38,101 nucleotides of DNA from an uncultured Bacilli bacterium (GCA_947631295.1 CANRKU010000010.1:1-38101); one strand, 5' to 3'. Positions 3,722 to 36,906 are shown, numbered from the stretch's first letter. Numbers and translations are program-made. The notes: a model not told the origin generated them from the letters alone.

Positions 3722-5113
3722 ATGAATGTTAAAATTATATGGTCTAACTTTTTAAACAGTATTAAAACAGAAATGAACCCTCTTTCTTTTGAAACTTGGT
3801 TTCAAAATATAGAATTATATGATTATAAAGATGGAATTTGTAAGATTATAGTTCCTATGGCTATTTATAAAAAACATCTTACTACGAAATATTACGATTT
3901 AATTGTTAGTAATCTGAGTAATATAGTAGGTGATAATGTAGATATAGAATTTTATACACAAGAAGAAATTGAAGAGTTAGAAAAAAAATCTAACGAAAGT
4001 GAAAATAGTATTTCAATTAACAATTTTGTGGATAATAGTAAAAATTTAGAATCAATTGCTCATTTTCAATCTAATCTTGATAAAAAATATACATTTGAAA
4101 ATTTTATAGTAGGTAATACTAATAAATTTGCTCAAGCTGCAGCGTTGGAAGTAGCTGAAAATCCAGGTGTTTTATATAATCCTTTATTTATATATGGAAA
4201 TAGTGGATTAGGAAAAACACATTTAATGCATGCAATTGGTAATTATATTGTAGAACATTCTAATAAAAAAGTTTTATATGTATCTAGTGATCAATTTATT
4301 ACAGATTTTTTAGGAATTAATAAAAAAGATGAACATGGAAAAAATTTTGATTATATTAATTATTTTAAAAATAAATATCGAAGTATTGATGTATTAATTG
4401 TAGATGATATTCAATTTTTTCAAGGAGCACCGCAAACTCAAAATGAATTTTTTAATACATTTACTAAATTATACGAAGAAAATAAACAAATTATCATATC
4501 ATCAGATCGATCGCCAGATGATTTAAAATTACTAGAGGATCGTTTACGAACAAGATTTTGTTGGGGATTAACAGCAGATATTTTTCCACCAGATTTCGAT
4601 TTAAGAGTTGCTATCATGAAGAAAAAAATAATAGGGGAGTCTATTGAAAAAAATATTCCAGATGATGTTATTGAATATATTGCTTCTAATATAGGAAGTG
4701 ATGTTAGACACTTAGAAGGTGCTATTACTAGACTTTTAGCTTATTCTACTATGATGGGAGGATTAGATATTAATTTAGATTTAGCTGTTGATGTTTTAAA
4801 AGATTTTGTCAATAAAGGATATAGTGAAAAAAATAGTGTGAATCGAATACAAAGAATTGTAGCAGAATATTTTCAAGTTTCTGTTGAAGATATGAAATCT
4901 AAAAAAAGAAGTGCAAATTTGGCATTTCCTAGGCAAGTAGCTATGTATTTATGTAGAAAATTAACCAATGAATCTTTTCCTAAAATAGGAATTGAATTTG
5001 GTGGGAAAGATCATTCAACAGTAATGCATTCAGTAGAAAAAATTGAAAAAGAAATTGAAAATAATAAAGAACTTGCAAATATTATAGAAAAACTCAAAAA
5101 AGAAATTGTATAA
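3722..5113 (+). CDS. dnaA: chromosomal replication initiator DnaA
   Basis: DnaA is the AAA+ ATPase that binds DnaA boxes, opens the origin and loads helicase. Domain I is at the N-terminus (WSNFLNSIKTEMNPLSFETWF). A low-complexity linker follows (about 85-115). Then come the AAA+ domain with Walker A GNSGLGKTH and Walker B VLIVDDIQFF, and domain IV with the signature GGKDHSTVMHS near the C-terminus. The length of 463 residues is typical. The ATG at 3722 has a GGGGGGAT ribosome site. DnaA boxes flank the gene on both sides. Confidence 0.99.
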   Translation: MNVKIIWSNFLNSIKTEMNPLSFETWFQNIELYDYKDGICKIIVPMAIYKKHLTTKYYDLIVSNLSNIVGDNVDIEFYTQEEIEELEKKSNESENSISINNFVDNSKNLESIAHFQSNLDKKYTFENFIVGNTNKFAQAAALEVAENPGVLYNPLFIYGNSGLGKTHLMHAIGNYIVEHSNKKVLYVSSDQFITDFLGINKKDEHGKNFDYINYFKNKYRSIDVLIVDDIQFFQGAPQTQNEFFNTFTKLYEENKQIIISSDRSPDDLKLLEDRLRTRFCWGLTADIFPPDFDLRVAIMKKKIIGESIEKNIPDDVIEYIASNIGSDVRHLEGAITRLLAYSTMMGGLDINLDLAVDVLKDFVNKGYSEKNSVNRIQRIVAEYFQVSVEDMKSKKRSANLAFPRQVAMYLCRKLTNESFPKIGIEFGGKDHSTVMHSVEKIEKEIENNKELANIIEKLKKEIV

Positions 5114-29739: not shown

Positions 29740-29787
29740 TATATTTAACTTATATAATACTCGATGGTAAATGATGTAGGTGATATT

Positions 29788-30387
29788 ATGAAAAAGAAAA
29801 CTCATCAGTTGTATAAAGCTATGTTACATAGATCATTATTAGTAATTACGGTTTTTGTGTTATGCTATGTCATTGTTTCTAGCACTGAACATACAACACA
29901 TAGTATTACTAATATAAACGGTGTAAAATCAATTGAAGCTATTCATATTATTAATAAATATGATAATAAAAATAAAACTCTTCAAGTGAGAGAAGTTAGT
30001 AATATGCAAGAGGCTTCTTTATATGGACCTAGTGAACCCATTTCTTTTACAGGGCAGATGACAGCATATAACCCAATTTGTGCAGGTTGTACTGGTAAAG
30101 TATCTTGTCCACCTAGACAAGATGTTAGAAAAGGTAATATTTATTTTAATGATAATGTTTATGGTCAGGTTCGTATTTTAGCTGCTGATCCTGCTATTCC
30201 TTGTGGTACAATTGTTCAAATTACGAATGTTAGTTTTACTAATGAACCTATTATTGGAATTGTTTTAGATAGAGGTGGAGCTATTAAAGGTAATATTATG
30301 GACTTTTTAGTAACAGAAACGGATAATATGAATATTGTTGGTCGCCAAAGAAATGTTCATTATGAAATTTTAAGATGGGGTTGGTAG
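29788..30387 (+). CDS. membrane-anchored 3D-domain protein (YabE-like position)
   Basis: The 3D domain is a double-psi beta barrel with three Asp that acts on peptidoglycan as in MltA-type transglycosylases and Rpf/Sps proteins. Here the Asp are in AADPAIPCG, VLDRGGAIKGN and IMDFL in the C-terminal half. The N-terminus has one membrane segment (about 17-34), so the domain is outside the cell. Cysteines of CAGCTG and PCG may pair. ATG at 29788 has GTAGGTGA before it; 199 residues. B. subtilis YabE at the same place also has DUF348/G5 parts that this protein lacks. It directly precedes the TasA-like genes (15 bp). Confidence 0.88.
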   Translation: MKKKTHQLYKAMLHRSLLVITVFVLCYVIVSSTEHTTHSITNINGVKSIEAIHIINKYDNKNKTLQVREVSNMQEASLYGPSEPISFTGQMTAYNPICAGCTGKVSCPPRQDVRKGNIYFNDNVYGQVRILAADPAIPCGTIVQITNVSFTNEPIIGIVLDRGGAIKGNIMDFLVTETDNMNIVGRQRNVHYEILRWGW

Positions 30388-30402: not shown

Positions 30403-31041
30403 ATGAATAATCAATCAGATTATAATCATGATATAGATGTATCAGAAGAAAAAGAGAGAAGAAGGTACTGGCCATATTTATTATTGATGACCATTCTTTT
30501 ATTCTTCTGTGTATTTGGTATTTCTTATTCAGTTTATTATGGTAGAAGTGATGAAAACCAAGAAATAGAAACCGGCCAAGTAGTTTTTACTTATTCTGAT
30601 GTAGGACAGGCTGGTAATGGAATCTTATTAAAAGATGCTATGCCAACAGTAGATGCGATTGGTAAATCTATGGTAGGTAGTGGTCAATACTTTGATTTTT
30701 TTGTAACGGCGACGACGAGAAATTCCAAAATTTTATATAAACTTTTAATTGATAAAAATGATGCATCTACTTTAGCTGATGAAAATGTAAAAATTTATTT
30801 AACACAATTAATGGGAAGCTTTGAACAAGAAAAGGTTTTTACTAATTTTTCTAATTTGAAAAAAGAAACTATCAATAATAAAGAATATTATGTTTTATAT
30901 GAGACAACTTTAGATGAAAATATTAAAAATCTCATTGAATCTTATCGTTTAAGAATGTGGGTTAAACAAGATGCCAATGATTTTGAAAATCAATTTTTTT
31001 CTATTAAAGTTGACGTATATGCTTATGAAATAGGAAAGTAG
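30403..31041 (+). CDS. TasA/CalY-like surface protein, paralogue 1
   Basis: 212 residues: a charged 22-residue cytoplasmic N-terminus, one membrane helix (23-43) ending GISYSVYY, then an extracellular beta-rich domain. Segments shared with the three paralogues of this window are: ETGQVVFTYSDVG, GNGILLKDAMPTVD, YFDFFV, and SYRLRMWV near the end. The pattern G-x-S-Y-x near the helix end, followed by T-G-x-V-x-F and a long beta sandwich, resembles SipW-processed TasA/CalY, and a SipW-like peptidase gene lies 760 bp on. Family by resemblance and context only. GGAGATGG precedes the ATG. The N-terminal tail is longer than in the others. Confidence 0.7.
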   Translation: MNNQSDYNHDIDVSEEKERRRYWPYLLLMTILLFFCVFGISYSVYYGRSDENQEIETGQVVFTYSDVGQAGNGILLKDAMPTVDAIGKSMVGSGQYFDFFVTATTRNSKILYKLLIDKNDASTLADENVKIYLTQLMGSFEQEKVFTNFSNLKKETINNKEYYVLYETTLDENIKNLIESYRLRMWVKQDANDFENQFFSIKVDVYAYEIGK

Positions 31042-31048
31042 TGTGAAT

Positions 31049-31693
31049 ATGAAACGAGAAACCATTAGTAAAAAAAAGATTGCAGTTATTATTTTATTAT
31101 TTTTATCTTTAATAGCTATTTTCATAGGAATTAGTTATGCTATATTTAATTATTTTGGTGAAGGAATGACTAATAATGCTATTCAAACTGGAAGAGTAAT
31201 ATTTTCTTATTCTGATGCGAATGGTGGTAATAATGGTATTTTAATTGAGGATGCTCTTCCTATTTCAGATGAACAAGGAAAATTATTAGCAGATGAAGGT
31301 GAATATTTTGATTTTACTGTTTCTGCTTCTACTACTAAGACAGATTTAATTTATGAAATTACAGTTAATAAAGATCAGGCGTCTACTTTACCAGATGATT
31401 GGATTAAGGTTTATTTAACTACTTTTGATGGTAGTAGTGAAGAGTCTACTCCATTAACCGAAGCTTCTACTGGTATAGTTACTTATGATGAATTACAAAA
31501 TACTACTAATCAGCTTTTATCAGGAAAAACAGTTTATTATGGTGATGTAAAAGCAGGAGAGGTTGCTTATGGTAAAAGATTTCGTCTTAGAATGTGGGTT
31601 AAGGATCCTAATCAAACTAATTTTGATTATACCACTTTAAATAATAAATCTTTTTCTTTAAAAGTTAATGTGGCTGCAGTAGGTACTTATTAA
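31049..31693 (+). CDS. TasA/CalY-like surface protein, paralogue 2
   Basis: About 214 residues: basic N-terminus (KRETISKKK), membrane helix 10-28, then GISYAIFNYF. ISYA|IF is a good match to a signal-peptidase site of SipW type (small residue at -1). Extracellular part carries QTGRVIFSYSDANGG, NNGILIEDALPISD, YFDFTVSAS and FRLRMWV. A GTG two codons earlier (31043) has AGGA at good spacing and could be the start. The stop of paralogue 1 is only a few bases upstream, so they form one transcript, closed by a terminator. Role as matrix or fibre subunit is inference. Confidence 0.72.
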   Translation: MKRETISKKKIAVIILLFLSLIAIFIGISYAIFNYFGEGMTNNAIQTGRVIFSYSDANGGNNGILIEDALPISDEQGKLLADEGEYFDFTVSASTTKTDLIYEITVNKDQASTLPDDWIKVYLTTFDGSSEESTPLTEASTGIVTYDELQNTTNQLLSGKTVYYGDVKAGEVAYGKRFRLRMWVKDPNQTNFDYTTLNNKSFSLKVNVAAVGTY

Positions 31694-31704
31694 TAAATAG
31701 TGTA

Positions 31705-31730
31705 AAGGAAAACAATGTTTTTCTTTTTTT
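31705..31730 (+). terminator. intrinsic terminator after TasA-like 2
   Basis: 9-bp stem AAGGAAAAC / GTTTTTCTT (one G-T pair), loop AAT, T run. Weak GC content, but placed right between the gene and the next promoter. Confidence 0.65.
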
Positions 31731-31733
31731 TAT

Positions 31734-31762
31734 TTTACATCTTTTTTTATCTGTGATATTAT
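31734..31762 (+). promoter_or_regulatory. promoter of the signal peptidase gene
   Basis: TTTACA (31734-31739), 17 bp, TATTAT (31757-31762), with TGA as extended -10. Start about 30 bp before the ATG. Confidence 0.65.
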
Positions 31763-31798
31763 TAAGATAATAATAGGTGAATAGAATCGGGTGATAGT

Positions 31799-32377
31799 AT
31801 GGAATTAGCAAAAAAGATATTTAAATTTTTATCGTCCATATTATTTTATTCTGTTTTTTTAATTTTAATAGTTGTTTTTGTGATGTTTGCTGTTTCTTTT
31901 GTGGACAAAAAAATACTAATGAAAAATGGTCAGTATCGACATTCATTATTTGGGGCTTATATTATTATTAGTGAAAGTATGATACCTCGAATTAATGTAT
32001 ATGATGCTGTTGTTACGATGCGTGTTGATGCTTATGATATAGAAGTAGATGATATTATTACTTTTCTTTCTAAGGATATAGAAACGGCTGGTACTCCTAT
32101 TACTCATCGTGTTATTGGTATTGTTTATGATACAGAGGATAATTCAAAAATTTTAGGTTTTAGAACGAAAGGAGATCATAATAATACTGCAGATTTTGCT
32201 TTGATAGGACCAGATGAAGTAATTGGAAGAGTATTTTTAAGAATTCCTATGATAGGGTATTTACAAACTATTATGACTAAGCCAATTGGTTGGCTTATAA
32301 TTGTGGTTATACCTTGTTTACTTATTGTTGGTAGTGATATTTTTAAATTAATTAAAACCTCTAAGATAGAAGAGTAA
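31799..32377 (+). CDS. sipW: signal peptidase I, SipW/ER type
   Basis: 192 residues: N-terminal membrane helix (about 13-35), catalytic Ser60 in SESMIPRI, catalytic His103 in THRVIGI, the KGDHNN-x-x-D box of ER/archaeal type enzymes, and a C-terminal membrane helix (about 165-180). Ser-His rather than Ser-Lys marks the SipW class, which in B. subtilis matures TasA and TapA. It is therefore the likely processing enzyme for the TasA-like proteins on either side. GGGTGATA precedes the ATG. It has its own promoter. The name is given by class and context, not by proven substrate. Confidence 0.88.
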   Translation: MELAKKIFKFLSSILFYSVFLILIVVFVMFAVSFVDKKILMKNGQYRHSLFGAYIIISESMIPRINVYDAVVTMRVDAYDIEVDDIITFLSKDIETAGTPITHRVIGIVYDTEDNSKILGFRTKGDHNNTADFALIGPDEVIGRVFLRIPMIGYLQTIMTKPIGWLIIVVIPCLLIVGSDIFKLIKTSKIEE

Positions 32378-32498
32378 ATCTCATAGCTATTAAAGATTTG
32401 TTCATTTTCTTGTATAAATTTATAATTATTTAAATTTAAAACATAATAATAATGCAATCAAAAAGTATAATATATTCAAAAAAAAATAGGAGGAAAAA

Positions 32499-33191
32499 AT
32501 GGAATTTTTTAAGCAATATTTAAAAATTATTAATTATGCAATGATTGGGCTTGTTTTTTCTTTTGCTTGTTTTTATTTATTTTCTAATATTTATCATTAT
32601 TTTGAAATTAGGAAAGACTTTGTTACAAATTTCTCTACCCAATCTTTAGTTTTAGATTTTCAAAAAAAGATGTCTAATGTTAGTCAAAATATCTCTAATT
32701 TTAATGCTAATACTTATCATGGTAATCTTTCAGCTAATCAGATGCAAAGTATTTATCATAATCTTGAGTCTTGTACAAAGAGCTTTCAAAATACAACTAT
32801 AAAATCTATGATGGAAAAAGATAGAATTACAATTATAGATGTCTATCAGCTTCGTGAATCTTATGAAAATGATATTTTAAGTAGTTGTATTGTTAATAAT
32901 TTGTATTGGACAACTTTGGTAACACCTGAAACTTATAATAGTGCTTATTTATTAAATAATAAAAATATGATGCAATTATATTTCAATGCATTATTAGATG
33001 AGACATCATATTTAAAAAAGGATTTATTAAATAATAGTAGTTATTTTTATAATACATCAATAGCTTCTTCATCCATTAAAGATACTACAAAAGATGGTTT
33101 TTATGAAGTAATGGGTGCTTATGGTAAAGCAGCAAGTTTTGTTGAATTTGTATCAGAATGGTTTAGAAATGAAGTGGAGGGAACTTTATGA
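32499..33191 (+). CDS. unknown membrane-anchored extracellular protein
   Basis: 230 residues with a single N-terminal membrane helix (about 13-31) and a long outside domain rich in Asn, Ser and Tyr, probably mostly helical. Contains two Cys (in ESCTKS and SSCIVN) that could form a disulphide. No family recognised. AGGAGG precedes the ATG. It overlaps the next gene by 4 bp (ATGA), so the two are translated together and probably act as a pair. The place behind sipW suggests a link to surface-protein export or assembly; this is inference. Confidence 0.75.
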   Translation: MEFFKQYLKIINYAMIGLVFSFACFYLFSNIYHYFEIRKDFVTNFSTQSLVLDFQKKMSNVSQNISNFNANTYHGNLSANQMQSIYHNLESCTKSFQNTTIKSMMEKDRITIIDVYQLRESYENDILSSCIVNNLYWTTLVTPETYNSAYLLNNKNMMQLYFNALLDETSYLKKDLLNNSSYFYNTSIASSSIKDTTKDGFYEVMGAYGKAASFVEFVSEWFRNEVEGTL

Positions 33192-33736
33192 TTAAAGTAA
33201 TTAATGGAATATTTTCATTTCTTAAAGTTATTTTATTACTTGTTACTTTTGTATTTACTTTCTTTATTATTATTAATATGTACCGTAGACTTGAGAAAAA
33301 TGTAATGGATTCTTTTGCTAACTTTATTCCCTTTTTTCTGTTATTTACTTTATTCGCAATTAATATTATATTTAGACAGAAAAGTGTTAATAATTGTTTG
33401 TTTTATAATATTACTTGTTGCTTAGTATTTGCAATGTTACTATTTTCAATCTATAGAACCTTTTTTGATCGTAACATGGTAGTTATGATTCGTTTGGGTT
33501 ATGATATTAATTTTAATTATTTTGCTGATATGATTGCTCCTATGCGTGCTATGTTATATATACTGTCTGTTTCTAATGTTTTATTGATGGTGGAAGGAAT
33601 TCATTATGAATCAAAGAAAAAAGAGGTTATTGATAAAACTGATTTCAGTAAGAAAACAATAGAATCTACTAATAATGGTGTGAATGTTGTTAATTTTGGA
33701 AAATCTATTTCTAAAACTAAGAAAAAAAGAGGATAA
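33188..33736 (+). CDS. unknown polytopic membrane protein
   Basis: 182 residues with about four hydrophobic segments: 8-28, 46-60, 69-87 and 117-130. The C-terminal 45 residues are cytoplasmic, charged and end in KTKKKRG. No family recognised. It overlaps the gene before it by 4 bp and is closed by a terminator. With its partner it may form a membrane complex serving the surface system; there is no motif to say how. Confidence 0.72.
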   Translation: MIKVINGIFSFLKVILLLVTFVFTFFIIINMYRRLEKNVMDSFANFIPFFLLFTLFAINIIFRQKSVNNCLFYNITCCLVFAMLLFSIYRTFFDRNMVVMIRLGYDINFNYFADMIAPMRAMLYILSVSNVLLMVEGIHYESKKKEVIDKTDFSKKTIESTNNGVNVVNFGKSISKTKKKRG

Positions 33737-33741
33737 TGTTA

Positions 33742-33773
33742 AGAATTTAAGCTTATAAATTCTCTTTTTTTTT
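33742..33773 (+). terminator. intrinsic terminator before rsmA
   Basis: 8-bp stem AGAATTTA / TAAATTCT, six-base loop, C and nine T. It separates the sipW unit from rsmA, which may use TGA-TATAGT (33794-33799) as extended -10. Confidence 0.75.
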
Positions 33774-33814
33774 GCTTTTTTGGATAGTTATGATATAGTT
33801 ATAGTGGTGATTTT

Positions 33815-34609
33815 ATGAATCAAAATGATTTTCATTTTAAAAAGAAATTTGGTCAAAACTTTCTAAAGGATCCTAATATTCCTCGAAAAATTGTTGATGT
33901 TGCTAATATTTCTGAAGATAGTTTAGTAATTGAAATTGGTCCTGGTGCTGGTACTTTAACAAAAGTTTTAGCTTCTAAAGCTAAGCAGGTTTGTTGTTAT
34001 GAAATTGATCAAGAACTTAAAACAATATTAGATCGGGAATTATTAGATTTTCATAATGTGTGTATTTTTTATGATGACTTTTTACAGCGGGATGTGAGAA
34101 AAGATTTAGATCAATTTGAATATTCTCATCTATACGTAATAGCTAATCTACCTTATTATATTACTACACCTATTATTACAAAATTAATTGAGAGTAATCT
34201 GGAAATAGAAAAAATTATCGTAATGGTTCAAAAAGAGGTAGCCGATAGATTATGTGCTAAAGTTGGTGATAGAGAATATGGTTCTATTACTGTTTTCTTA
34301 AACTATTATTTTCATCTAAAAAAAGAATTTTTAGTAAGTAGAAATCTTTTTGTACCAAAACCAAATGTAGATAGTATGGTAATTTCTTTAACTAAGAAAG
34401 AAAATAATTTTCCAACAGAAAATTTTCAGTTATTTGCACAATTAGTACGTGATAGTTTTCGTTATAAAAGAAAAATGCTCCGCAATAATTTAAAAAATTA
34501 TAATTTGGATTCTATAGAACAAGTTTTAAAAAAATATGGTTTTGACTTAACTGTTAGGGCTGAAGAACTCTCATTAGAAATTTTTATAGACATTAGTAAC
34601 CATTTGTAA
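33815..34609 (+). CDS. rsmA: 16S rRNA (adenine1518/1519-N6)-dimethyltransferase RsmA/KsgA
   Basis: RsmA dimethylates two adenines in the helix-45 loop of 16S rRNA. Motifs: KKKFGQNFLKDPNIPRKI at the start, SAM motif IGPGAGTLT, and catalytic NLPYYITTPI. FRYKRKMLRNNLK near the C-terminus is family-typical. 264 residues. GGTGATTT precedes the ATG. In B. subtilis it follows rnmV and precedes yabG; here surface genes sit on both sides and rnmV is absent. Confidence 0.98.
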   Translation: MNQNDFHFKKKFGQNFLKDPNIPRKIVDVANISEDSLVIEIGPGAGTLTKVLASKAKQVCCYEIDQELKTILDRELLDFHNVCIFYDDFLQRDVRKDLDQFEYSHLYVIANLPYYITTPIITKLIESNLEIEKIIVMVQKEVADRLCAKVGDREYGSITVFLNYYFHLKKEFLVSRNLFVPKPNVDSMVISLTKKENNFPTENFQLFAQLVRDSFRYKRKMLRNNLKNYNLDSIEQVLKKYGFDLTVRAEELSLEIFIDISNHL

Positions 34610-34637
34610 ATTTTTTTTCTGATAAATTTAAATTTCA

Positions 34638-34667
34638 TTGACAAATTGGGGTAAACTGCAATAGAAT
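34638..34667 (+). promoter_or_regulatory. promoter of TasA-like 3
   Basis: Perfect TTGACA (34638-34643), 18-bp spacer, TAGAAT (34662-34667). The same -35, spacer length and -10 recur in front of the sortase fusion gene. Confidence 0.75.
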
Positions 34668-34700
34668 ATGCTTATAAGGATAAAAAGTTGGAGTTTGGAT

Positions 34701-35333
34701 ATGAATAATAGAATAAGATTGGGGATTTTATTTAGTATTATTGGTATTATTTTTTTATGTGTTGGAATTAGTTATTCCTTTTTTTATCGTGGTTTAGATG
34801 AAGTATCTAAATCTCCATCTGGAAAAATAACTTTTGTATATACAGGTGTAGCAGGAGCTGGAAATAAAATAAATTTAACGGAATCTATTCCTGTATCTGA
34901 TGAAGTTGGTAAAAAACAGATAGTAAGTGAAAATTATCTTGATTTTAAAATAATTAGTAGTATCTCTAATTATTATAATATACCTTATGAAATTACAGTT
35001 CGAAAGCAGAAAGATTCTGTTTTAGATGATACACTTGTTAAAGTATATTTAACAGAATTATCTGAAACAGGTGAAAAAGAATTGTTTCTAACTACATTTG
35101 ATGCTTTAAAGCAAACAGAAAAAATTAATGTTGAAAAATATATTGAAAAAACACTTTATCAAAATAATATTTCTCCAAATAGTAGTAACTATGAAAAAAG
35201 CTTCAGATTAAGAATGTGGATAGATTCCAGCAAAGTAAATAATTTTGATAATGGTATTTTACAGACTTTTGTTGTTACAGTGAATGTTTATGCAAATGGT
35301 GCAGTTGTAATTAATGAACAAGCTAATAATTAA
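34701..35333 (+). CDS. TasA/CalY-like surface protein, paralogue 3
   Basis: 210 residues: short N-terminus MNNRIRLG, membrane helix 7-24 ending CVGISYSFFYR, then an outside domain with SGKITFVYTGVAGAGN, ESIPVSDEVG, YLDFKIISS, IPYEITVRK and FRLRMWI. ATG at 34668 lies on the -10 and is rejected; ATG at 34701 has GGAG at good distance. It is closest to the fourth paralogue (PYE-x-T-x-RK, KYIEKTLYQ near-identical), so these two arose by a later duplication. Monocistronic: own promoter, own terminator. Confidence 0.75.
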   Translation: MNNRIRLGILFSIIGIIFLCVGISYSFFYRGLDEVSKSPSGKITFVYTGVAGAGNKINLTESIPVSDEVGKKQIVSENYLDFKIISSISNYYNIPYEITVRKQKDSVLDDTLVKVYLTELSETGEKELFLTTFDALKQTEKINVEKYIEKTLYQNNISPNSSNYEKSFRLRMWIDSSKVNNFDNGILQTFVVTVNVYANGAVVINEQANN

Positions 35334-35368
35334 AGTAATCATAAGTAAAAAAAATCTGTAGTTTTATG

Positions 35369-35396
35369 AATATTGCTATATAAGCAATATTTTTTT
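35369..35396 (+). terminator. intrinsic terminator after TasA-like 3
   Basis: Perfect 9-bp stem AATATTGCT / AGCAATATT, five-base loop, then T run. The next 140 bp up to the promoter at 35539 is AT-rich; it has a second TTGACA at 35514 without a matching -10, and I see nothing else. Confidence 0.85.
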
Positions 35397-35538
35397 ATAT
35401 AAAATAATTTTACACATATATATGACTATTTTACACCTCAATAAAATCTTCTTTACTTTTTAATATGTTTTTAACTCTTTTATATCAATAAAATTTTATT
35501 TTTATTTACACTATTGACAATTCTTTTTTCGATATTAT

Positions 35539-35568
35539 TTGACATTATTTTTCAATAGATAGTAGAAT
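35539..35568 (+). promoter_or_regulatory. promoter of the TasA-like/sortase fusion gene
   Basis: TTGACA (35539-35544), 18-bp spacer, TAGAAT (35563-35568), the same design as at 34638. Downstream leaders also share GGA...AAAGTTGG and the start ATGAATA. Confidence 0.75.
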
Positions 35569-35601
35569 TGAATTAGAAGGAATAGAAAGTTGGTGCCAAG
35601 T

Positions 35602-36906
35602 ATGAATAGAAAAATAGAATTAGGTATCTTATTAGGTATTATTGGTCTTATTAGTTTAACTTTTGGGGTTAGTTTTTCTTTTTTTCATTATACTAATGTT
35701 GGCGCTCAAGAAAATATAATTACATCAGGCGAAATCACCTTTTTGTATACAGAAACATCAGGTGTAGGAAATGGAATTAGTTTGACTGATGCTTATCCTA
35801 TGTCAGATAGTTCAGGGACTAATCAATCTATAAATGATCAATATTTTGATTTTAAAATTACTAGTACAGAATCTAGTAATTATGATGTTCCTTATGAAGT
35901 AACAGCTAGAAAAAATAAGAAATCGACTTTAGATGATAGTAAAGTAAATGTTCATTTAATAGAATTAGATGATAATAGTGAAAAGGATCTATTGTCAGAT
36001 ACATTTAGTCAATTAAATCAAACAGAAAAAGTGGAAGAAGAAAAATATGTTGAGAAAACACTTTACCAGGGCGAAATTTCTGCCAATAATGTTCATTATG
36101 AGAAAAATTTTAGATTAAGGATGTGGGTGGATAAAGAAAATACACAATTAAATGTTATTAATCAACCTTCTTCTAATCAAACTTTTACGATAATGATTAA
36201 TGTATATTCAAATGGAACTGTGGTAATGAGTGATGAAAAGAATACAGAAATAGATGCAGATATGGTTTCTAATGATACCGATATCGATACTAGTGTTGAA
36301 AGTGTGGATACACAGTCTAATATTCCACCAGTTGAAAATAGTGTTGAATCTAATGTAATTCCAGAGGTCAATACTGTTCCTGATGTTGTTCCATCTGTAG
36401 AAATTCCTACTCCTCCTGTAACAAATAATGATTCTACTCCAGAGGTAAATAACTCACCAGATATTATTATGGATCCTGAAACTCATCAATTATCTAAGTA
36501 TCCAGATTGGGGAACAATTTGGGGAACTCTTAAAATTCCAGATATCGGATTAGATGTGTCTATCTATCGTGGTGATTCAGAAGATATTATTGATCGTGGT
36601 ATTGGACATTATGCAGGAAGTTATTTTCCTGGAGAAGGTGGATCTATTATCTTAGCTTCTCATAATACAAAAGAACATTTTATGCGTTTACCAGAACTAA
36701 AAATAGGTGCTCATATTACTATTGAAGCAGTGTATGGTACTTATACTTATGAAATTGTTTCTACGAAAATTATCAATGATACTGATGATGATCAATTACC
36801 TATTCAGAATAATGAAGAATTATTAATGTTGTATACTTGTTATCCTATGGGGGTTGATGGCTATAAAACTCAGCGATATGTAGTCTATGCAAAATTAGTT
36901 GGTTAA
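35602..36906 (+). CDS. fusion of TasA-like domain and sortase
   Basis: 434 residues in three parts. Residues 1-210: MNRKIELG, membrane helix 7-24 (FGVSFSFF), and a complete TasA-like domain (SGEITFLYTETSGVGNG, YFDFKITS, FRLRMWV). Residues 211-300: an acidic, Pro/Asn/Val-rich linker typical of wall-spanning stretches. Residues 305-434: a sortase domain starting WGTLKIPDIGLDVSIYRG, with GIGHYAGS, catalytic His354 (ASHN), Cys413 (LYTCYP) and Arg425 (TQRYVVYAKL). The triad is complete. Architecture and motif order suit class D/E sortases. The start is ATG at 35602; its ribosome site (TTGGTG) is weak. Which substrate it joins cannot be seen; no LPxTG-type signal was found in the other paralogues. 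Confidence 0.85.
   Translation: MNRKIELGILLGIIGLISLTFGVSFSFFHYTNVGAQENIITSGEITFLYTETSGVGNGISLTDAYPMSDSSGTNQSINDQYFDFKITSTESSNYDVPYEVTARKNKKSTLDDSKVNVHLIELDDNSEKDLLSDTFSQLNQTEKVEEEKYVEKTLYQGEISANNVHYEKNFRLRMWVDKENTQLNVINQPSSNQTFTIMINVYSNGTVVMSDEKNTEIDADMVSNDTDIDTSVESVDTQSNIPPVENSVESNVIPEVNTVPDVVPSVEIPTPPVTNNDSTPEVNNSPDIIMDPETHQLSKYPDWGTIWGTLKIPDIGLDVSIYRGDSEDIIDRGIGHYAGSYFPGEGGSIILASHNTKEHFMRLPELKIGAHITIEAVYGTYTYEIVSTKIINDTDDDQLPIQNNEELLMLYTCYPMGVDGYKTQRYVVYAKLVG

Follow-up and report, generated by a model that had tools for sequence, protein, structure and literature searches.

A candidate TasA-type surface-filament module with an expanded subunit repertoire in uncultured Bacilli

The pairing of a SipW peptidase with TasA-type subunits is already known from Bacillus and Clostridium perfringens (PMC13082335, PMC7395162). 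In the B. subtilis tapA-sipW-tasA operon (PMC9674648, PMC10151520), the fibre subunit TasA, for which donor-strand assembly has been shown (PMC9674648), has Phe at P2' of its cleavage site, is poorly cut by E. coli LepB and is handled by SipW (PMC10269814); the accessory protein TapA, whose N-terminus is similar to TasA, serves as an initiator (PMC10151520). The sipW/tasA/capP/calY locus of B. cereus (PMC13082335) holds at least two TasA-type subunits, a single SipW and the secreted accessory protein CapP, which has a DUF4047 and a predicted helical bundle. In C. perfringens, sipW-bsaABCRSD encodes a SipW-dependent filament subunit alongside further secreted gene products, and filament polymerisation is independent of a nearby sortase (PMC7395162). 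Archaeal bundling pili (7ueg) are TasA-like donor-strand fibres as well, of archaeal origin and distant in sequence.

The locus described here lies in a 38,101-nucleotide stretch of DNA (the window) from an uncultured Bacilli bacterium whose 1.1 Mb genome is represented by 48 contigs in an assembly that is 92% complete. Positions 30403-36906 encode four related secreted proteins (Tas1, Tas2, Tas3 and TasSrt), one Ser-His signal peptidase and two coupled membrane proteins, MP1 and MP2 (Table 1), and all of these parts, reported in a first-pass annotation, are present, including the membrane helix of each paralogue. The set is flanked or interrupted by tatD, a 3D-domain protein, ksgA (rsmA), yabG and Veg, and is located ~25-30 kb from dnaA (3722-5113) and the origin region. 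The high gene dose and the tie to biofilm that the first-pass annotation read from the nearness of oriC and Veg are possibilities suggested by position. Tas2 begins at either GTG 31043 or ATG 31049, and ATG codons at 34701 and 35602 are the likely starts of Tas3 and TasSrt, judging from the sequence.

Table 1. Features of the locus, in window coordinates
Feature	Coordinates	Strand	Remarks
3D-domain protein (YabE-like), flanking gene	29764..30387	+	PF06725; 15 nt upstream of Tas1
Tas1, 212 aa	30403..31041	+	SipW-type N-terminal helix ending GISYSVY; predicted TasA-like ectodomain
Tas2, 216 aa, predicted TasA-like subunit	31043..31693	+	AlphaFold model matching TasA
SipW-like ER-type (Ser-His) signal peptidase, 192 aa	31799..32377	+	TIGR02228
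MP1, 230 aa	32499..33191	+	One N-terminal membrane helix and predicted helical extracellular bundle; without known family
MP2, 182 aa, multi-spanning membrane protein	33188..33736	+	4-nt overlap with MP1
ksgA (rsmA), housekeeping, between MP2 and Tas3	33815..34609	+	PF00398
Tas3, predicted TasA-like, dispersed clade	34701..35333	+	ORF listed from 34668
TasSrt, predicted TasA-like domain, acidic/proline-rich linker and class-D-like sortase domain	35602..36906	+	ORF listed from 35590

The arrangement resembles the B. subtilis operon in the predicted TasA fold, the adjoining dedicated Ser-His peptidase and the aromatic P2' residue, and the accessory subunit gene beside sipW is paralleled in relatives of the window by a gene that we call X. 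It differs in its genomic position, in its several tandem subunits and two extra membrane proteins, and in long members fused to putative adhesins; X is itself related to TasA and apparently uncleaved, and the sequences are too far from TasA to match PF12389. Multiple TasA-type subunits, a single SipW and an accessory protein with a predicted helical bundle recur in the B. cereus locus, although MP1 is membrane-anchored whereas CapP is secreted. The resemblance to C. perfringens lies in the SipW-dependent subunit and the additional secreted proteins, but the two-component genes found there are absent from the module here, and no counterpart of MP1 or MP2 has been described there. We found no account of such a system in uncultured Bacilli in the literature searched, which left out most subscription papers. 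What is new, then, is the remainder of the module, its distribution across an uncultured lineage, the large-scale fusions and the joining of a TasA-like domain to a sortase. Our preferred reading, to which we assign a probability of roughly 0.6, is that the locus specifies a TasA-type surface filament with an expanded repertoire, in which subunits would be exported by Sec, cleaved by SipW and assembled by donor-strand exchange into fibres displaying adhesins.

Predicted fold and cleavage motif of the paralogues

The four paralogues have pairwise identities of 31-49% (BLAST), and their ectodomain alignment scores lie 28-52 standard deviations over those of shuffled sequence, a likeness beyond chance. 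Each has a single N-terminal membrane helix, ending GISYSVY in Tas1 and GISYAIF, GISYSFF or GVSFSFF in the others. In relatives the helix end reads G-x-S-x-A↓x-F (the arrow marks the predicted cut), with a small residue at P1 in 83 and an aromatic residue at P2' in 75 of the 85 aligned proteins, and the motif is present in all 16 family proteins checked from the window's own genome, the four window proteins included. A small P1 residue followed by an aromatic P2' is the SipW-type signature, which ties the Tas proteins to the adjoining SipW-type enzyme, and from the sequences we infer that this enzyme cleaves them.

As anticipated by the first-pass annotation, the ectodomain of Tas2 is predicted to be a TasA-like beta-sandwich. 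An AlphaFold model built from 89 sequences has a mean pLDDT of 89, and the three best matches returned by a structural aligner are all TasA: 8aur (Z 8.1, rmsd 3.8, 143 residues aligned), 5of2 (Z 7.6) and 5of1 (Z 7.6), followed by an unrelated entry at Z 5.8. In Foldseek, the same model retrieved the archaeal bundling pilus 7ueg first (E 9.4e-4), followed by the TasA fibre 8aur (1.7e-3). While a Z of 8.1 is by itself moderate, three TasA entries clear of the rest together with a TasA-like archaeal pilus constitute a coherent answer, and on the strength of this model the Tas domain is TasA-like by structure. Residues 40-49, the would-be donor strand, are modelled with low confidence in the Tas2 monomer, a result compatible with strand exchange or with its absence.

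At the level of sequence families the expected link to TasA/CalY did not hold, as PF12389 had no match listed among the window proteins or the 89 relatives scanned. Two other proteins of the window's genome score 20 bits against a PF12389 cut-off of 22.5. When the Tas profile was compared with a PF12389-type set, the probability was 98% over 162 columns, which include the signal helix; this set comprised seven proteins, mostly PF12389 matches, two of them from the window's own genome. The NCBIfam TasA model NF046066 left the window proteins unmatched and gave weak matches to four of the 89 relatives (best E 0.0028); neither Pfam nor NCBIfam holds a model that recognises the TasA-like domain of the window paralogues. 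Searching the PDB by sequence produced rows at chance level with the Tas profile and none with a TasA-like protein of this genome as query.

The peptidase and its conserved neighbourhood

The SipW-like peptidase contains SESM at position 58 and THR at 102, matches TIGR02228 with 89.4 bits (cut-off 51.85, E 2e-25), and has a Ser60, within the SxSM box region, and a His103 that do not vary across 19 sequences; against the NCBIfam SipW equivalog NF046067 it scores 71.1 bits, under the cut-off of 190. It is the sole match of its kind found in its genome. Across 288 genomes of the order, Tas and a strong SipW (SipW-like match with E<1e-20) occur together in 167, SipW alone in 7, Tas alone in 21 and neither in 93, corresponding to an odds ratio of ~106, a statistic inflated by kinship whose p-value should not be read literally. 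The two genes also lie close together in relatives, which bears out the earlier suggestion that this peptidase and the paralogues belong together.

Might the enzyme instead be a general signal peptidase of a reduced genome, its nearness to the Tas genes being functionally minor? An ordinary P-type SPase I (TIGR02227) was not found in the window's genome, one of only five such among the 288, so that the SipW-like enzyme may serve general secretion there. The absence may, however, be a gap in an assembly that is 92% complete rather than a real loss. A P-type SPase I is found in the other 283 genomes, so that in nearly all of the 288 the SipW-like enzyme is an extra and not a replacement, and it tracks the Tas genes and travels with them; we therefore consider a purely general role quite improbable. 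Variation among the peptidases themselves was also seen: in the two nearest relatives (L061:9957-10862 and L062:6981-7862) the enzyme has a Ser/Asn/Asp-rich C-terminal tail of ~100 residues that the window's copy lacks, and one locus of a Clostridia MAG (L159) contains three SipW-like peptidase genes and no detectable Tas gene.

The gene order in relatives is tatD-(3D protein)-Tas(1-7 copies)-SipW-X-MP1-MP2-ksgA-yabG-veg. A SipW profile yielded 80 named loci, in records assigned to uncultured Bacilli, Tenericutes, Erysipelotrichaceae, Clostridia and Candidatus Onthousia; on the DNA examined, 72 of these have a Tas gene and 42 have MP1. The first-pass annotation had implied that such a set is rare at this site, but the tatD-ksgA interval holds it in many relatives. 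At seven loci (L116, L122, L127, L128, L129, L133 and L144) the set is found with neither tatD nor ksgA on the DNA examined, suggesting that the module stays together when moved.

The position beside yabG and near a SpoVT-type regulator raises another reading, that the set builds a spore-surface layer or appendage, and spore formation is predicted for members of related orders (PMC10868615). These neighbours, however, are those of the ordinary tatD-ksgA-yabG-veg order, and the module occurs elsewhere too. A near-perfect vegetative sigma-70-like promoter (11/12) precedes each of Tas3 (promoter at 34638-34667) and TasSrt, although the regional total of promoter-like sites is at chance level. A spore-specific function is, in our estimate, the least probable of the readings considered, and very improbable.

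X accompanies MP1 at 38 of the 42 loci that have the latter. The four exceptions, L081, L082, L083 and L085, are those whose SipW is most nearly identical to the window's, and X is missing from the window's own locus as well. Profile alignment shows X to be a homologue of Tas (hhalign 99.1%, E 1.3e-18), but only one of 38 X proteins has the cleavage motif, which points to a putative membrane-retained base subunit; TapA offers a precedent. No Pfam or NCBIfam family was found for X, nor was a TapA model listed, these libraries possibly holding none.

MP1 is predicted (pLDDT 86) to consist of one helix and an extracellular helical bundle. It is encoded in 35 of the 288 genomes, all of which have Tas, and in 30 it lies within 1.5 kb of SipW. 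Given this restricted distribution, MP1 and MP2 appear dispensable for Tas and SipW in general. We claim no family for MP1, since no Foldseek row fell below 1e-3 and those retrieved were generic helical bundles; a CapP-like identity was considered and dropped because DUF4047 is not among its Pfam matches. No relatives of MP1 were found in viral contigs, and MP2 has no Pfam family.

A dispersed family and a sortase fusion

Tas1 and Tas2 cluster with genes that occupy the corresponding position in the nearest relatives (for Tas1, in L081, L082 and L083), whereas Tas3 and TasSrt are sisters nested among dispersed members of the window's genome. By these sequence relationships, Tas1 and Tas2 are old residents of the locus, and Tas3 and TasSrt belong to a genome-wide family and probably entered the ksgA-yabG gap later.

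The system had been pictured as purely local, a view that gives way to one in which the TasA-like domain is dispersed across the genome. A profile of the four window paralogues retrieved 13 further members from the 1.1 Mb genome, and in most of these the Tas domain forms the first 220 residues of a protein of 500-900 residues. With at least four more members of a second TasA-like type, the family amounts to at least 21 proteins and ~35 kb, or 3.2% of the assembly; the count is a minimum, since several members sit at the ends of contigs, where an assembly would break if gene starts are nearly identical. The C-termini of the long members include Laminin_G_3 (LamG), DUF285/BspA-type repeats, and glycine-rich, bacterial Ig-like, cadherin-like and unassigned domains. 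Among twelve fused members, the N-domains are related in 66 of 66 pairs (median identity 86%) and the C-termini in 13. The long form occurs in other genera too, where the Tas domain is joined to BspA repeats, to List_Bact repeats or to twelve cadherin-like domains. Judged by their domain types, these C-termini are putative adhesins.

Two further features of the dispersed members were seen. In most of the dispersed long Tas genes the ATG is directly preceded by a conserved leader with the end ACTTAAAAACTAAAGGAGTTATT (upstream of L014, L016-L019 and L021-L023), which is absent from the window, suggesting a separate, shared control. At unrelated loci (L012:7415-9964, L017, L021 and L162:319-2007), several Tas proteins have a common C-terminal domain that ends RGG...FRLVL; it has no Pfam match and looks like a formylglycine-enzyme/C-lectin fold.

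The prevalence of long proteins whose C-termini are unrelated is also what would be expected if the TasA-like domain were a mere export or presentation module, carrying monomeric adhesins that are secreted or tethered, whether cleaved or membrane-anchored, without any fibre. MP1 is lacking in most genomes with both Tas and SipW, which fits this idea as well. Yet the short one-domain Tas genes, present in 1-7 tandem copies beside SipW, would then be carriers without cargo, and the predicted fold is that of fibre-forming proteins. We regard this as the main competitor to the filament and as unlikely, although far less so than a general-peptidase or spore-related role.

The fourth paralogue, TasSrt, ends in a sortase domain (residues 314-437; PF04203, E 1.4e-24) that follows an acidic, proline-rich linker, and no separate anchoring sortase of the kind first envisaged is encoded in the interval. 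The sortase His, Cys and Arg are all present (HN 358, TCYP 416, RYV 429), and in this family match and triad the domain is like a class D sortase. It scores below the class D cut-offs, however (NF033746, 101.6 bits against 165; NF058671, 103.6 against 140), and a TasA-like domain takes the place of the plain membrane anchor found there. Among sortase matches in the 288 genomes, the long fused frame is seen in the window's genome only, and the fusion rests on this single assembly of 48 contigs; the nearest stand-alone sortase, 62% identical, is encoded in the same genome. None of the 16 family proteins checked from this genome has an LPxTG-like sorting motif, and a simple sortase-anchored model was dropped for this reason. 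At another site (L026:2351-3506, contig C12), a secreted protein with a tail composed of NPNTG, a spacer, a membrane helix and Arg/Lys precedes a stand-alone class-D-like sortase and may be a sortase substrate.

Proposed assembly and its implications

In the filament that we favour, Sec would export both the short subunits (Tas1, Tas2) and the long ones, the latter carrying adhesin-type domains, or a sortase in a single instance, after the TasA-like one, with the N-terminal helix placed in the membrane. The SipW-like peptidase would then cut after the small residue of GxSx(A/S)↓xF, freeing an N-terminal strand that could complete the beta-sandwich of the next subunit by donor-strand exchange, and the resulting fibres would display the C-terminal domains of the long subunits. 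MP1 and MP2, joined where it is present by the helix-retaining, TasA-related X, may form a membrane base at which the fibre starts and is anchored. A broader version, put forward tentatively and at somewhat less than even odds, is that throughout this lineage of uncultured Bacilli one TasA-type domain serves as a universal fibre plug for unrelated adhesins, and here for a sortase, on an X-MP1-MP2 base and with one SipW-like peptidase.

If these proposals are correct, X, MP1 and MP2 would be three new candidate assembly factors for Gram-positive donor-strand fibres, and TasSrt would be a case of a sortase joined to a fibre domain. The organism would devote ~3% of its 1.1 Mb genome to a TasA-type fibre system, providing a testable route to surface attachment in bacteria still beyond genetics. 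TasA-type fibres would then be a major modular surface technology of uncultured, reduced-genome Bacilli, beyond their role as a Bacillus biofilm scaffold.
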